A DNA stretch of 21,264 nucleotides, taken from positions 1 through 21,264 of IMG/VR virus record IMGVR_UViG_3300047353_000032; one strand, written 5' to 3'. Positions 469 to 10,807 of this stretch are shown piece after piece (the stretch's first letter is position 1; each line of letters opens with the position of its first letter). Below the pieces are notes generated by a model. The model searched no databases. It worked only from the letters and a program-made list of their open reading frames with translations, and had not been told where the DNA came from. The stretch comes from a virus. The translations under genes were made by a program, and so were the position numbers.

Positions 469-1166
469 ACTCTTACCCAATCATGTCTGCAGTTATATCC
501 ACCTCTATTAGCAAAGTCTACATATCCTAAAGCATCTATTTCTTTTCTTGTAAGAGGTGGTTCTTGTAATGCTCTTTGGCATACTTCTCTTGTCTTATTA
601 TCACTTGTTCCAATGTATTGAAACTTTACTTCAGGAAACTCCTCAAATGCCTTTGCTCTTGTTGTATTACTGAATCGTGAAAAAGCATCATTAATCAAAA
701 AAGAAGTTTCACTTGAGCTAATATAAGTTCCTACACCAAAGGTGCTATTAATGTTATTCATTATCTGAATATTGCTCTCACCAGTTATAATTCCTCTTAG
801 CATTGCAGTCTTTAGTTGATCTGAATACTGCCTTACTCCATTTGTCAAATAAGTCATTTCAAAGTTCTTCAACTCTCTTAAAGCATCGATACTTGCTGCA
901 GATACTTGCCCTAACTCTCGTTTAGATAGTTCTGCAAATACTCTTGCTATCTCATCATCAAAGGTTTTACCTACTCTATTCATTAGCTTAGTAAACCCTA
1001 ATGTTTCCATTTCTGCAAAGAAGTCTATCTGCTTAGCAATCTGCATCAGTTCAGTATCAGTTACTCTACCTAAACCTACTACCAGGTTATCCAATTTGTC
1101 AATTAACTGTTGTTGGATATTCTCTATTTCTTTGTTGTAGAAATCTAAATTAGCCAACTTGTTCAC
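465..1166 (-). CDS. MuF-like head morphogenesis protein
   Basis: The protein has 233 residues. The C-terminal third carries the signature of phage Mu gpF-like minor head proteins: GTSDNKTREVCQ (about residues 185-196), then PPLTRKEID and a closing GGYNCRHDW. The spaced Cys and His residues are typical of this domain, which is found in a few copies per head and is often encoded right after the portal gene, as here. The N-terminal two thirds is helical and probably contacts the portal. The start is GTG at 1166, inside the end of the portal gene (17-bp overlap). Only a weak Shine-Dalgarno is visible, so translation is probably coupled to the portal. The identity is well supported by both motif and position. 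Confidence 0.85.
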   Translation of the reverse strand: MNKLANLDFYNKEIENIQQQLIDKLDNLVVGLGRVTDTELMQIAKQIDFFAEMETLGFTKLMNRVGKTFDDEIARVFAELSKRELGQVSAASIDALRELKNFEMTYLTNGVRQYSDQLKTAMLRGIITGESNIQIMNNINSTFGVGTYISSSETSFLINDAFSRFSNTTRAKAFEEFPEVKFQYIGTSDNKTREVCQRALQEPPLTRKEIDALGYVDFANRGGYNCRHDWVRV

Positions 1167-2657: not shown

Positions 2658-3844
2658 TCTATTGCCTTTGCTTGTCCTTTGAATCCATATCTGTAATCAA
2701 CTGGATAACATAAAGCATCTAAGAAGTGAGATAAAGTTTCAGTCTTTAATATTTGCCCATTCTCCATAGTACATAGTTCTAAATCTCTAATCGTGTTCTT
2801 ACACTTAGGATTAATAAATAGTCTATGCTTACCAGTAGCATCTTCTAACATCTTATTTAAAGCATTTAGTCTATCCTTTTGAGTTGGATTAGCTTTCTTA
2901 GCTATAACTGTAAACCCAGCTTCTTGTAATATCTTATGGTCAGACTTGGTGCTATTACTGGTTCTTGCCTTTCCTGCTGGATCAGGATATACTGGTAATC
3001 CTCGACCTTTTAACTGCATTAGCTTAGCCAATTCAAAGGTGTTAGAGTTCTGTAATCCAATCTCATCAAATACATATAATTCTCCTGCAGTATTTTCACA
3101 CATTAATAAAGCAGTCATATAAGATGCTACCCCAAAGTCAATTCCCCAGAACATTCTTGGGGACTTCTCCATTACTCTACAATGAATATCTCTACTAAAA
3201 TTGTATGCTGCTCTATTTGCAGCAGTAAGAAAACTTGCAAGATATTCTTGCTCAAAAGTTCTCTTATCTAAATTCTTTTTGGCATTCTCTACCTCTGATT
3301 CAGAAATAAAGCCACCTTCTAATGTGGTAAACTGCCAGGACTTATAATCACTATTCTTAGATTGTCCCTTAACAAATAGATCATAAAAGTGGTTTTGTAC
3401 TCCAGTTGGAGTTCCTACAAATAAAGCCGAACCTTTAGTTTCTGCTAAAGTCGGCTGTATAATCTCTCCCCACACATTCTCTTTCATATAACTGTACTCA
3501 TCAAGCACTACCATTGTTGTAGATACTCCTCTAAGTGAGTCAGGTTTGTCTGCCCCTTTAAGTTCAACTTTTGCACCATTGTCAAGTGTAATAGATAATT
3601 CAGTTTCATTGATACTGACTTCTTTATGTGAAAAGATGTCCTTGAGTATTGACCAAGATACCATCTTAGCTTGTCTATATGTTGGAAAAACAATCCACCT
3701 TCTCTCGTTAGCTTTAAAAGGCTTAGACAATAAAAATAAAATAGAGAAGTAAGACTTCCCCCACCTTCTACCACAGGATAAGATTTTGTATCGTGTATCG
3801 TCTTTAAGGATTGATTTCCTTGTGGCATCAATCGTCCAGTCCAT
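2651..3844 (-). CDS. terL: Terminase large subunit
   Basis: The protein has 397 residues and is the DNA-packaging motor ATPase and headful/cos nuclease. Visible motifs are the Walker A-like GRRWGKS at about residues 27-33, Walker B VVLDEYS near 111-117, and a coupling motif VGTPTG near 143-148. In the nuclease half, WGIDFG (about 232-237) supplies the first metal-binding Asp and the late HFLDALCYP (about 376-384) a further acidic residue, as in the RNase H-like terminase nuclease. It is somewhat shorter than many TerL proteins (often 420-550) but all expected motifs are present. It overlaps the small terminase gene by 17 bp, the usual order TerS-TerL-portal. Confidence 0.95.
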   Translation of the reverse strand: MDWTIDATRKSILKDDTRYKILSCGRRWGKSYFSILFLLSKPFKANERRWIVFPTYRQAKMVSWSILKDIFSHKEVSINETELSITLDNGAKVELKGADKPDSLRGVSTTMVVLDEYSYMKENVWGEIIQPTLAETKGSALFVGTPTGVQNHFYDLFVKGQSKNSDYKSWQFTTLEGGFISESEVENAKKNLDKRTFEQEYLASFLTAANRAAYNFSRDIHCRVMEKSPRMFWGIDFGVASYMTALLMCENTAGELYVFDEIGLQNSNTFELAKLMQLKGRGLPVYPDPAGKARTSNSTKSDHKILQEAGFTVIAKKANPTQKDRLNALNKMLEDATGKHRLFINPKCKNTIRDLELCTMENGQILKTETLSHFLDALCYPVDYRYGFKGQAKAIEW

Positions 3845-4196
3845 CTATATCAAATACCTTAATTGGTTCATCTGAAACATCTTTGATCCCTATGCTTTGA
3901 CTTGGTTTACCCAAGATTCTATCTGCTAAAAAGTTAATGGCAGTCATATTACCATCTAATGCTTCTTCATATACTTTACCTACAACAGCTTCTAACATAG
4001 TCTTTTTATCTTCTAATTCTACATTAGCTAAATCGGTGATATATTCGTTTAAGGCAAAACCAGATTTAGGTCGCCCTTTAGGGTTTCCTGATTGTCCTTT
4101 TTTCCATCTTTTCCCAACAGGTGGCTTCTTATATCCTACTTCGCTGTTGTTCCCCTGTTTTTCAGGGACTATCTTTGTTGTTTTAGCTGCAGCCAA
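3828..4196 (-). CDS. terS: Terminase small subunit
   Basis: The product is about 122 residues and lies directly upstream of TerL with a 17-bp overlap. TerS proteins bind the packaging site and load the motor. The segment GKRWKKGQSGNPKGRPKSG is a basic patch of the kind seen at the N-terminus of many phage small terminases ('GQSGNPKGRP'), followed by helices (EYITDLANVEL, EAVVGKVYEEALDGNMTAINFLADRILGKP) and an acidic end (IDGLDD). The frame is open to a GTG at 4205, but I prefer the TTG at 4196 because GGGGTGAT lies 4-6 nt before it, a good ribosome binding site, whereas the GTG has none. The leader in front holds two hairpins. Confidence 0.85.
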   Translation of the reverse strand: MAAAKTTKIVPEKQGNNSEVGYKKPPVGKRWKKGQSGNPKGRPKSGFALNEYITDLANVELEDKKTMLEAVVGKVYEEALDGNMTAINFLADRILGKPSQSIGIKDVSDEPIKVFDIDGLDD

Positions 4197-4227
4197 ACTA
4201 ATCACCCCACTATTTGAAGGTTATGTG

Positions 4228-4414: not shown

Positions 4415-4636
4415 TTACATTTTATTCTTTATAGTATATTGTTCTAAGTCTGCTTCAAACTCGGTAATTTGTTTGTCTACTAATAAATCTTTTTGTATTT
4501 CACATTTTTTCAATATGCCATTTAAAAATTCAGGCACATCTTTTCCTTTATCTAAAAATTTATTAGCTTCGTATTGTATTTCCTGTCTTATAAAATTTAG
4601 CTCTATTTTGTTAAATTCTAAGTTTTTTTGTTTCAT
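4415..4636 (-). CDS. Small helical protein in its own transcription unit
   Basis: The protein has 73 residues, is predicted almost fully helical and charged, contains one Cys, and has no signal peptide or membrane span. I recognise no family. The gene is convincing because it has everything a stand-alone unit needs: a sigma-70 promoter (4666-4694), a short leader with the GGAGAATAAA ribosome binding site right before the ATG at 4636, and a strong terminator after the stop. Independent expression from an early-type promoter is how phages often express host-takeover or regulatory proteins, but a function cannot be read from the sequence. Confidence 0.85.
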   Translation of the reverse strand: MKQKNLEFNKIELNFIRQEIQYEANKFLDKGKDVPEFLNGILKKCEIQKDLLVDKQITEFEADLEQYTIKNKM

Positions 4637-4665
4637 TTTATTCTCCTTTATTTAATTAACACTAT

Positions 4666-4694
4666 AGAATAATGATTTCTAAGATCAATGTCAA
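4666..4694 (-). promoter_or_regulatory. Sigma-70 promoter of the 73-residue gene
   Basis: On the minus strand the -35 is TTGACA (4694-4689), the spacer 17 bp and the -10 TATTCT (4671-4666). The start should fall near 4659. The near-palindromic TGTTAATTAA lies over the start site, as in the sister promoters at 5355-5383, 5426-5454 and 10533-10561. Confidence 0.9.
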
Positions 4695-4721
4695 TACTTT
4701 TTGTAAAATAATTTTAGATAC

Positions 4722-4745
4722 AAAAAACCCCCATGTTTCAGGGGG
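4722..4745 (-). terminator. Intrinsic terminator of the large non-coding RNA
   Basis: On the minus strand CCCCC pairs with GGGGG (4745-4741 with 4732-4728, loop of 8) followed by six T residues (4727-4722). It ends the ORF-free transcription unit that starts near 5348 and stands just upstream of the next promoter. Confidence 0.92.
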
Positions 4746-5348
4746 TATTTGGATTGATTGGTTCGTGTTAGCAAGACATTCACCTTTCAAATCATTACTG
4801 AATCAAGCCCTTTAGAGTTTACAAAGCACCATCCTGGAGGTTATTGTAAATTGTCAACATTACATTGACTCTCTATCGTTTCTTGGGTTATAAAGCCAAG
4901 CTTACAAAAGTCCCTATGTTCATCAGTAATTTTTAAATTTTCAAATAATTCTTTTGGAAATCATAGTTGTAATGTTCTTACCTATTTGCCTATCGTTTAA
5001 TCGTTCAATAACTTCACATTGCTAATCCATCTCAGTCCGAAGACTTATATTTGCAGCCCTTGTAGCCGATGGAATCACCTACTTAAAATCTAACTACAAT
5101 CTCTTTGGTTTCTCTCCTAAGTCAATTATAATCATCATTCTTTCAGCCAAAATTCTCGGAGTCCTTCGTTATATCATCTAACCGAATTTCAAAGATTCGT
5201 AAAACTTTAGTACAGGTCGTTAATGTAAGTTTATTGGGAATCCCTAACTAATGCATATGTCTTGTCCCTTCAACATCATTTACAACTCAAACTACCTTTG
5301 AATAGTTTTTTATGATTTCCAAATTTTTAAATAACTTTGTTTAATTAA
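4722..5348 (-). ncRNA. Putative large structured non-coding RNA, about 625 nt
   Basis: This is the largest gap in a tightly packed genome. Neither strand has an ORF of 60 codons or more between 4656 and 5450, yet the stretch has its own promoters (5355-5383 and 5426-5454) and a strong terminator (4722-4745), so a defined RNA of about 625 nt is expected. Inverted repeats indicate extensive folding. TTTGGAAATCATA near the 5' end (5323-5311) pairs perfectly over 13 bp with 4965-4953. TCCATC/GATGGA (5073-5068 with 5031-5026) encloses AGUC-UUCG-GACU (5045-5034), a classic stable tetraloop. Further hairpins are AAACTA/TAGTTT (5308-5303 with 5294-5289), CTTGG/CCAAG (4900-4896 with 4886-4882), GTCAA/TTGAC (4869-4865 with 4857-4853) and TTTACAA/TTGTAAA (4850-4844 with 4824-4818). 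Length and phage origin resemble ROOL and GOLLD RNAs, but I could not confirm membership. A new RNA class or a decayed region are the alternatives. Confidence 0.75.
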
Positions 5349-5354
5349 CAATTC

Positions 5355-5383
5355 AATCTATTAGACTCTAAAACAAATGTCAA
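5355..5383 (-). promoter_or_regulatory. Proximal sigma-70 promoter of the non-coding RNA
   Basis: TTGACA (5383-5378), 17-bp spacer and TAGATT (5360-5355) on the minus strand, with TGTTAATTAAACAAAG at the expected start (about 5348). The spacer begins TTTGTTTTAGA, the same as in the promoter 71 bp upstream, so the two look duplicated. Confidence 0.75.
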
Positions 5384-5425
5384 TATTTTTTTTTATTTTT
5401 TTTCAAATTGTTTAATTAACACTAT

Positions 5426-5454
5426 AGTATATGGAGTTCTAAAACAAATGTCAA
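5426..5454 (-). promoter_or_regulatory. Distal sigma-70 promoter upstream of the non-coding RNA
   Basis: TTGACA (5454-5449), 17-bp spacer and TATACT (5431-5426) on the minus strand, close to full consensus. The -35 hexamer contains the TGA stop codon of the preceding gene (5453-5451). The start-site palindrome TGTTAATTAAACA follows. It would give a transcript about 70 nt longer at its 5' end than the proximal promoter. Confidence 0.9.
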
Positions 5455-6107
5455 GAAAATAAGGAAATTATTTTTTTAGGCAATTTATCGACGAAGTTTG
5501 ATACTATCATTTCTTCAGGTAAGTCATCTATGATATATTTATATCCATACTTCTTTATGGTATCGGTACTAAAGTCCTCTATTAGTCTATATGTGCCTAA
5601 TTCTATTTGATGTGGCTCAAAGACTACTATCTGCCTATGTGGGATATTGAATTGGATCAGGAAACTATTTCTATGGGTTAGCTTTTTGGCTTTATGTTCT
5701 TTGATGTGGAAAAAGGGTATATCAGCAAATAAGGATTGTACTTCTATCTTTATGGTTTTGTTCCTATAAGTTACTTTGAAGTCAGGTGCTGCAGTTATCT
5801 CCCTTCTCATTACTCTTATAATTCTATCTTGATCATGGTTATCAAAGGTCGAAGTTAATTCTTTGTATGGTGGCAATGAGAATAGATAAGTAAATACATC
5901 CTCTACCAACCAACCCCTGCATATATCCATAAAGTGTTGTTCAGGTGTTCTGTTGTCCTGGATATGTGCCATTTCTTTATCCAGTTTATTATTAATGGTC
6001 TTTAGTTGCTGTTTATAAGAATAATACTTGTTATGTAGGTAATGGTGGTAATCTGAATTATTAGATAGTTCTTTTAGTTGATTATATGCTTTATCTAACT
6101 TATTCAT
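5451..6107 (-). CDS. Putative PD-(D/E)XK-type nuclease, last gene of the early operon
   Basis: The protein has 218 residues. A helical, charged N-terminus (about 1-60) precedes a compact domain. In it, APDFKVTYRNKTIKIEVQ (about residues 107-124) reads as a PD ... E-x-Q core of the restriction-endonuclease-like fold: Asp109, Glu122 and Gln124 in place of the usual Lys. Glu70 in a preceding helix could complete the site. The E-x-Q variant is known in some members of this superfamily, but the call rests on one motif. The start ATG at 6107 overlaps the stop of the HTH gene (ATGA) behind AGAAGA. The stop lies within the -35 of the next promoter. A host-DNA-degrading or recombination nuclease fits the context but is inference. 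Confidence 0.6.
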   Translation of the reverse strand: MNKLDKAYNQLKELSNNSDYHHYLHNKYYSYKQQLKTINNKLDKEMAHIQDNRTPEQHFMDICRGWLVEDVFTYLFSLPPYKELTSTFDNHDQDRIIRVMRREITAAPDFKVTYRNKTIKIEVQSLFADIPFFHIKEHKAKKLTHRNSFLIQFNIPHRQIVVFEPHQIELGTYRLIEDFSTDTIKKYGYKYIIDDLPEEMIVSNFVDKLPKKIISLFS

Positions 6108-6406
6108 TTTCTTCTTAATAGGTGAGTTATCAAAGTGGCTTGTTTAGATAGCTTTTTTAATGCTCGATTATAGTAAGTCTTACAAGCCGATTCTGATATT
6201 CTTAAATTGAATGCTATATCTGCAAAAGGGTATTTGTTTACTGCCCTTTCATAGAAGCATTGAAACTCTTGTTCCGATAGTTCCCTTCCCCCTACTACTC
6301 CAGTTAGAACATACTTTAATTCTTTCAGCATTTTTGCTTGTTCTTTTTCTACTTCATCTATTAGGTCTTGATATGATCTTGCTGTGTTTTCGATATTGTT
6401 TTTCAT
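6104..6406 (-). CDS. Small HTH (sigma region 4-like) regulator
   Basis: The protein has 100 residues from the ATG at 6406. The N-terminal half is a charged helix (YQDLIDEVEKEQAKMLKEL). The C-terminal half has a helix-turn-helix pattern: YPFADIAFNLRISESACKTYYNRALKKL (about residues 60-90), with the spacing seen in sigma-70 region 4 and in late-gene regulators of the ArpU/RinA kind. The reading frame is open to an ATG at 6553, but that extension runs through a long RNA hairpin (6424-6495) that has a sister elsewhere, so the later start is preferred. There is no clear Shine-Dalgarno before it. A role in switching on late genes from the terS leader would be reasonable but is not shown. Confidence 0.65.
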   Translation of the reverse strand: MKNNIENTARSYQDLIDEVEKEQAKMLKELKYVLTGVVGGRELSEQEFQCFYERAVNKYPFADIAFNLRISESACKTYYNRALKKLSKQATLITHLLRRK

Positions 6407-6423
6407 ATTAATTTTTTTGGGAT

Positions 6424-6495
6424 ATGTCGCCAGACCAATAAGAATCGAAAGCATATATTTGACCAAAGGTAGACAGGATTGGTTACCTGCGACAC
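6424..6495 (-). promoter_or_regulatory. Long hairpin element upstream of the HTH gene
   Basis: On the minus-strand RNA, GTGTCGC (6495-6489) pairs with GCGACAT (6430-6424), and ACCAAT (6483-6478) with ATTGGT (6439-6434). An asymmetric internal loop separates the two helices and a 38-nt terminal loop contains CCTTTG, ATG and TCGA. The 3' side of the stem ends 17 nt before the ATG of the HTH gene. The same geometry is found at 9397-9458. The first base pair is G-U in the minus-strand RNA but A-C on the plus strand, which favours the minus-strand reading. No T-run follows. Confidence 0.6.
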
Positions 6496-6527
6496 TCCTT
6501 CTAAATGCCAATATATGTTCATTATCT

Positions 6528-6734
6528 TTATCCCAAATCCTTGTTGTAGCCATGTTCTTTGGCTGTTTTTATTATATCTTTTACTGGTATGTACTTGTTG
6601 TACTTAAAGCAATACAATTCCATCATGTCTTGTAGGTCTGATGAAACTCTACCTGAAGATTCTACATATTGAATTTCATAAATATTATTTACTTTACAAT
6701 ATACTAAGATGCTGTTTAGTTCTTTGGTGTCCAC
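6528..6734 (-). CDS. Hypothetical protein, 68 residues
   Basis: The start is GTG at 6734, sharing its G with the TAG stop of the replisome-organizer-like gene (TAGTG), so translation is probably coupled. The protein is soluble, mixed alpha/beta, with a short strand segment (IYEIQYVESSGRVSS) and a C-terminal helix (VKDIIKTAKEHGYNKDL). The pattern of hydrophobic residues is regular. I recognise no family. Its place between a replication protein and an HTH regulator suggests an early accessory protein. Confidence 0.7.
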   Translation of the reverse strand: MDTKELNSILVYCKVNNIYEIQYVESSGRVSSDLQDMMELYCFKYNKYIPVKDIIKTAKEHGYNKDLG

Positions 6735-10428: not shown

Positions 10429-10502
10429 TCTTGTACCACCTTTTTAAACATTTCCCAAAAAAATATTGTAAATACTGAATATGCGATTATTTCTACGATC
10501 AT
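10416..10502 (-). CDS. Tiny membrane peptide, 28 residues, first gene of the early operon
   Basis: The ATG at 10502 follows AAAGGAGAATAAA only about 24 nt after the expected start of the early promoter transcript, the best-placed ribosome binding site in the operon. The peptide MIVEIIAYSVFTIFFWEMF plus a short charged tail (KKVVQEWIQ) has a hydrophobic, aromatic helix of about 17 residues. It overlaps the next gene by 13 bp. A leader peptide is an alternative to a functional membrane peptide, but no attenuator-like hairpin follows. Confidence 0.7.
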   Translation of the reverse strand: MIVEIIAYSVFTIFFWEMFKKVVQEWIQ

Positions 10503-10532
10503 TTTATTCTCCTTTGTTTAACTAACTCTACA

Positions 10533-10561
10533 AGAATAATGATTAATATGGAACTTGTCAA
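10533..10561 (-). promoter_or_regulatory. Sigma-70 promoter of the early operon
   Basis: TTGACA (10561-10556), 17-bp spacer and TATTCT (10538-10533) on the minus strand. The start is expected near 10526, where the operator-like GAGTTAGTTAAACAAAGG lies. It reads into the 28-residue gene and the operon down to 5451. Confidence 0.9.
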
Positions 10562-10574
10562 TACTTATTTTGCT

Positions 10575-10708
10575 AATTCTTTTTATTCTTCTGATTCTTC
10601 TTATGCTTTAACTTTATATTAGTCTTTGTCTTTTGTTTCTTTTTGCACCCTTAGGGTAAGGGTTATGGTAAGGGTTAGTTATCCACAAATATTATATAGT
10701 TATCCACA
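10575..10708. other. Probable replication origin
   Basis: Two perfect DnaA boxes TTATCCACA on the plus strand (10679-10687 and 10700-10708) are spaced 21 bp apart, two helical turns, with AT-rich DNA between. Immediately to the left is a tandem repeat (10655-10677). Further left lies a tract of about 70 bases made almost only of pyrimidines and A on the plus strand (10575-10645), possibly the unwinding region. The site sits between the late terminator and the early promoter, a typical place for a phage origin. Confidence 0.65.
10655..10677. repeat. Iteron-like tandem repeat beside the DnaA boxes
   Basis: GGTAAGGGTTA occurs twice, at 10655-10665 and 10667-10677, with a 12-bp period. It overlaps the palindrome ACCCTTAGGGT (10647-10657). 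Short tandem repeats beside DnaA boxes commonly bind an initiator protein. The replisome-organizer-like protein at 6734-7093 is a candidate partner, by inference. Confidence 0.6.
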
Positions 10709-10735
10709 ATTTGAAGGGTTGTTTATTTTAGATAC

Positions 10736-10759
10736 AAAAAAGCCCAAATTAATGGGCTT
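10736..10759 (-). terminator. Intrinsic terminator of the late operon
   Basis: On the minus strand AAGCCCA pairs with TGGGCTT (10759-10753 with 10746-10740), with an AT-rich loop, and the T-run spans 10741-10736. It lies about 50 bases after the stop of the last tail gene at 10808. The 17 bp at 10725-10741 are identical to 4711-4727 at the non-coding RNA terminator. Confidence 0.9.
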
Positions 10760-10807
10760 CCTTGTTTATGGGGTGATTATATACCTTTCAGTATAAAAGT
10801 CTTGTAT

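Follow-up and report, generated by a model that had tools for sequence, protein, structure and literature searches.

A modular structured non-coding RNA encoded by a phage, with a core conserved in other phages

A stretch of several hundred nucleotides that holds no gene of ordinary length, in the genome of a phage, raises the question of what the phage keeps it for. The locus considered here lies in an IMG/VR virus record whose whole analysed stretch of 21,264 nucleotides is called the window, and the phage is presumably marine, judging from an earlier note on this DNA and from the sample context. That note had proposed that the locus encodes a large structured non-coding RNA of about 625 nt, and had brought up membership of the ROOL or GOLLD RNAs. 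ROOL is a multimeric RNA nanocage and GOLLD a 14-mer nanocage. The question is accordingly whether the locus encodes an RNA at all, which part of that RNA is conserved, and whether it belongs with these cages.

A predicted transcription unit between two genes

The gap is flanked on the window by a 218-aa gene (5451-6107) and a 73-aa gene (4415-4636). As the earlier note had held, it is free of long reading frames: no ORF of at least 50 codons lies on either strand within 4656-5450, the longest inside encodes 47 aa, and the sole exception of at least 50 codons between the flanking genes is a frame antisense to the 73-aa gene. The predicted non-coding transcription unit of about 620 nt (626 nt) runs along the minus strand from about 5347 to 4722, with the following signals.

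5426-5454, minus strand: upstream sigma-70-type promoter, TTGACA-17-TATACT, followed by GTTAATTAAAC; the same promoter occurs in L085
5355-5383, minus strand: proximal promoter, TTGACA-17-TAGATT, with the expected start near 5347; conserved in L085
5322-5338, minus strand: AU-rich conserved leader AAAGTTATTTAAAAATT, the 5' end of the RNA; common to the six homologues and L030
4722-4746, minus strand: intrinsic terminator, ACCCCCTGAAACATGGGGGT+TTTTT; conserved in L085 and L030

Both tandem sigma-70 promoters and the strong terminator had been read from the window earlier, and all three were confirmed on the minus strand. As read from the sequence, the RNA gene is a self-contained promoter-to-terminator unit in the window and in L085. 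In the approximately 0.92 Mb of loci fetched from IMG/VR contigs (the L-numbers), the only other gaps of at least 450 nt without a 55-codon ORF are those of L085/L086 and an unrelated one in L112, and a gap of this kind is therefore unusual for these phages. Of the 51 distinct TTGACA...GTTAATTAA promoter units in the loci, 47 have an ORF of at least 38 codons within 140 nt; the exceptions are both promoters of the window's RNA, one in L085 and one in L030. The element GTTAATTAA is itself nearly palindromic and stands just 3' of the -10 box in the promoters of this phage group (4651-4694, 5355-5383 and 5426-5454 in the window, together with the 51 units in relatives), where it may be an operator.

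Other features of the window were recorded alongside. A small protein with sigma-70 region 4 (PF08281, E 8.5e-9), possibly a phage transcription factor, is encoded at 6104-6553 on the minus strand, and its gene adjoins this cassette region in many relatives. The gene at 3828-4205 (minus strand; PF18932, DUF5681, E 5.6e-16), upstream of the large terminase gene, is likely to encode the small terminase. An intergenic stretch of about 380 nt at 10429-10807 holds a part-copy of the terminator sequence (10725-10745) and, solely on the opposite strand, an ORF of 56 aa.

Relatives of the RNA and their surroundings

A search for homologues, which the earlier note had called for, found a full-length relative and four further loci that carry the core. 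Two protein-anchored scans gave about 100 related loci, in most of which the slot upstream of the small terminase gene shares only the repeated promoter and terminator, with different small genes between them. The full-length homologue is that of the L085/L086 contigs, which are identical to each other over the 900 bases compared. Aligned with the window over 853 columns it is 76.5% identical, and it lies in the same slot, with the same promoters and terminator. Its 5' end and 3' part are conserved, and its middle is diverged and variable in length. The neighbouring genes differ: in L085 the RNA comes directly after the sigma-region-4 gene and before a 79-aa ORF, whereas the next gene in the window is p73. 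The pattern ATAAACTTACATTAACGRC brought in L144, L145, L146 and L147, which match only the 5' part, or core, of the window's RNA and whose records lack the 3' extension. The core of L146 sits in the same slot, between a sigma-region-4-like gene and the small terminase, and the window's large terminase has no match in the L144, L145 and L147 records, which may be fragments.

Several other scans added nothing to this set. The patterns ACCTCCAGGATGGTGC and GCTTGGCTTTATAACCC matched many loci, all of them except L085/L086 by chance and mostly in coding DNA, and ATGATTTCCNNAAGAATTATTTGA and AAAGGTGANTGTCTTGCTAA matched only in the L085/L086 contigs. Gapped patterns run on viral and genome collections added L148-L155, again chance matches only; L149 among them looks non-coding, yet had no match to the profile of the core. 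No homologue of the RNA came up in BLAST comparisons with phages and plasmids, and similarity in 50,697 phage records was confined to short promoter-like or low-complexity stretches.

The flanks of the core vary with the phage that carries it. In L146 an AT-rich region of its own lies upstream, and the core is followed by the sequence AGTTTC-TTTG-GGAACT-ATTTTTTTTT, which by eye resembles a terminator. The RNA leader of L145 and L147 is directly preceded by a local promoter-like motif, TGGGAAC[C/T]TT...TATAAGTAGTAT, and another copy follows the core. Motifs of this type recur in L144, L145 and L147, mostly upstream of genes, and the motif is absent from the window, L085 and L146. The RNA appears, from these flanking motifs, to carry the promoter type of whichever phage bears its gene. 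Upstream of the core, L144 (about 505-650, minus strand), L145 (about 1963-2135) and L147 (about 2199-2360) have a further, separate stretch that resembles a structured RNA, domain X, with fold z values of -2.5 to -4.0; known phages gave no match to the copy in L145.

A short ORF-free unit in L030 (5690-5960) occupies the same slot and has the same promoter, leader and terminator as the window's RNA. It has its own P1 (GGATATTAAAAA with TTTTTTAATATCC) closing a 192-nt domain, an ACAAAG motif spaced from P1 as in the core, and also an AGAGAAACC motif; the antisense strand gives it the more stable fold, which counts against membership. On these sequence features, L030 is probably a divergent short member of the RNA family.

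A core domain held together by compensating changes

The comparison rests on six distinct core sequences, from the window, L085 (equal to L086), L144, L145, L146 and L147, which range from about 326 to 365 nt in length and fall into two interior types, so that few independent mutational events are available. The features of the RNA, from its 5' end in the window, are as follows.

4956-5320, minus strand: the 365-nt core domain that P1 closes, shared with L085/L086, L144, L145, L146 and L147
5312-5320, minus strand: 5' arm of P1, GGAAATCAT (GGAGATTAT in L144-L147); compensatory with the 3' arm
5289-5308, minus strand: P2 hairpin, AAACTAT-TCAAAG-GTAGTTT; nearly invariant, paired in six of six
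5272-5286, minus strand: 5' arm of P3, pairing with 4976-4966, about 300 nt apart; arms change together in L085 and L145
5218-5235, minus strand: invariant AATAAACTTACATTAACG, identical in six of six, whose CTTAC can pair with GTAAG at about 4981-4977 (P4)
5092-5133, minus strand: P7, a long helix with a 2x1 internal loop and the apical loop GGAG[A/C]GAAAC
5026-5073, minus strand: closed P8 domain, found in type A only, with the AGUC-UUCG-GACU hairpin, whose loop is not conserved
4956-4964, minus strand: 3' arm of P1, ATGATTTCC (ATAATCTCC in L144-L147); compensatory with the 5' arm
4747-4955, minus strand: 3' extension; strongly conserved with L085/L086 only (89% identity)

The proposal of a unit of about 625 nt stands as far as the large structured RNA is concerned, but what is widely conserved is its 5' core of 365 nt. 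The extension, which makes up the 3' approximately 230 nt of the RNA, is seen in only two distinct phage sequences; its covariation gives z values of +4.9 on the sense and +2.5 on the antisense strand on the thin basis of a two-sequence alignment, and in the window it is no more stable alone than shuffled sequence (z 0.25).

The perfect 13-bp long-range helix described earlier is exact (5323-5311 with 4965-4953), and when the 626-nt RNA was shuffled 500 times with its dinucleotides preserved, a perfect helix of at least 13 bp arose only 3 times. The part that matches among the six sequences spans, in each of them, the region between the two arms of P1 (5320-5312 with 4964-4956 in the window). 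The arms read GGAAATC[A/G]T and ATGATTTCC in the window and L085, and GGAGATTAT and ATAATCTCC in L144-L147, with 54 of 54 cells paired and two pairs changed on both sides. The two arms of any one sequence form a duplex of -9.2 to -10.0 kcal/mol, as against -2.1 or -7.5 for arms exchanged between the types. P3 is formed by GTTGTA..ATGTT with AACATTACAAC, in place of which L085 and L145 have GTTGATAGGGTT with AACGCTAACAAC; its pair count rests on a 4-bp stub. L144 combines the interior type of L085 and L145 with the P3 arm pair of the remaining sequences, as expected from recombination together with a need to pair. P4 is invariant, and covariation is for that reason uninformative there.

P7 differs in sequence between the two types but not in shape: in both, a long stem leads through a 2x1 loop to a short stem that carries the GGAG[A/C]GAAAC loop. 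Five of its pairs are changed on both sides, 95.6% of its cells are paired compared with 51% at most for slid partners, and its covariation score was reached by none of 500 shuffles. These counts were made on motif-centred, gap-free 58-nt pieces because MAFFT places P7 with a gap, and those of P1, P2 and P3 on joined end pieces; both alignments favour the helices counted, a bias that the slid controls answer in part. The AGUC-UUCG-GACU hairpin of the earlier note is present at 5046-5033 and its stem is kept in the relatives of type A, but its UUCG loop is not conserved, being UUAU in L146 and UUAG in L147.

The interior is of type A in the window, L146 and L147 and of type B in L085, L144 and L145. 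The genetic surroundings of the core thus vary, as do the pieces that flank it, its interior takes either of two forms, and the combination of two divergent interiors with different ends indicates that the RNA is modular and recombining.

Folding energy alone would have said less. The whole 626-nt RNA has an ordinary energy (z = -0.95), so that from the window by itself the structure could only be suggested. The 365-nt core and its counterparts fold better than shuffles in all six sequences, with z values of -1.7 to -3.2 in the sense direction and -0.2 to -1.5 in the antisense direction. The energy of the six-core alignment, however, is better than that of shuffles on both strands, and it is therefore covariation that gives the strand: the RNAalifold covariation term of the six-sequence core, which we read as a bonus when positive according to our understanding of its sign convention, has z = +3.0 on the transcribed strand and 0.1 on the other (column shuffles). 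Covariation among homologues, on which the earlier note had staked its proposal together with the lack of an intact ORF in them, is found in P1, in P7 and in the alignment as a whole. No reading frame is shared by the six cores, none of which stays free of stops in the sense direction for longer than 34-41 codons.

Taken together, sequence comparison establishes the fold (P1, P3, P2 and the P7 arm) and the modular build, and a phage-encoded large structured non-coding RNA with a covariation-supported structure and no ORF is what the locus encodes. Read from the alignments, the conserved fold is real and kept by compensating mutations, in an RNA that matches no Rfam family.

Relation to known RNAs and other readings

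The suggested membership of ROOL or GOLLD was not borne out. Rfam 15 gave nothing on the window at the gathering threshold and only chance matches at E<=10, among which weak snoRNA and leader matches are counted, and scans of the homologues (L086, L144-L147) with a relaxed threshold gave no family match. Neither the ROOL (RF03087) nor the GOLLD (RF02032) model matched the window at E<=10; the control of the models, made for ROOL only, picked out one of 200 control genomes at E=4.5e-75, and the RNA resembles that ROOL sequence only in A-rich chance matches. There is no tRNA in the window, L144-L147, L085 or L030, and the location of ROOL near tRNA islands is a tendency and not a strict rule. 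ROOL is likewise large, ornate, non-coding and borne by phages and prophages, with its function not known, whereas the present RNA lacks a match to the model, does not lie beside tRNAs and has a different modular core. GOLLD is a phage RNA comparable in size and likewise divided into a conserved and a variable region, but its 3' region is the conserved one and its 5' region the variable one (PMC12286853), while the present RNA, with no model match and no accompanying tRNA, has its conserved part in the 5' core. A divergent true ROOL or GOLLD RNA, against which these results speak, or the same kind of multimeric cage, is an improbable identity, even though the size, the phage location, the intricate helices and the placing of a conserved domain beside variable ones would suit it.

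Other large RNAs can be compared in the same manner. The ICP1 transcript of approximately 800 nt and the lncRNAs of kayvirus phage K are abundant, ORF-less and likened to ROOL and GOLLD by their authors (PMC7567579, PMC9241854); they share with the present RNA the lack of an ORF, but nothing in the 50,697 phage records resembles the latter beyond the stretches described above. ROOL, GOLLD and OLE RNAs self-assemble, and OLE is also large and ornate, self-association being a feature of OLE itself (PMC12286853); it differs as a bacterial gene of extremophiles, and the present RNA has no Rfam match.

It is more doubtful still that the folded core is a cis-acting leader or attenuator that controls the downstream gene. 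The downstream gene does lie close to the core in L144, L145 and L147, and the promoter-like motif, a ribosome-binding site and a small ORF come no more than about 60 nt beyond the core of L145 and L147. In the window and L085, however, a terminator, placed at the far end of the 620-nt unit, and a new promoter separate the RNA from the next gene, and that gene is p73 in one and the different 79-aa ORF in the other. A mobile RNA element, either a self-splicing intron or the guide RNA of a transposon or defence system, could account for a core with paired ends that has moved between lineages and has two interior types, but is very unlikely in view of the lack of Rfam matches to introns, HEARO or ribozymes, the location between promoter and terminator (in the window, L085 and probably L146) instead of inside a gene, and the lack of a consistently adjoining nuclease or reverse transcriptase in an unsystematic look through the ORF lists. 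The least credible reading is that of decaying DNA or an unrecognised small-protein gene: antisense stop-free frames of approximately 60-75 codons in the relatives speak for it, but those of the window are shorter (at most 51 codons stop-free, with a longest ORF of 47 aa), and compensatory pairing and the conservation of promoter and terminator would not be expected of decay.

The sequence evidence thus favours a free-standing non-coding phage RNA gene of a new structured family, probably a trans-acting structural RNA, and we are fairly confident in that reading. Host RNA polymerase would transcribe such an RNA from the two tandem promoters and stop at the terminator, and transcription from tandem host-type promoters would be strong and probably early. 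The RNA would then fold into a compact particle and act in trans as a structural RNA, neither by translation nor by cis control of the next gene. By analogy with ROOL, GOLLD and OLE, the particle may hold or decoy a host or phage factor, or may assemble with its own copies. A further and more speculative possibility, which we advance only tentatively, is that this is a new class of phage RNAs with interchangeable modules, in which the interior of a closed core can be exchanged and flanking domains may be present or absent, that has moved between unrelated phages and assembles with itself or a host factor into a particle early in infection.

Few known RNAs are as elaborate as ROOL and GOLLD, for which we know of no function. 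A new family, not related to them and smaller in its core (about 326-365 nt, and 192 nt in the probable member L030), indicates that RNAs of this kind are wider than those catalogued, and the phages in which it occurs represent two gene contexts or more. Its small core offers a compact construct for structure work. The natural swaps between its two types of interior, in which paired arms change in concert, map the parts of the RNA that must fit one another.
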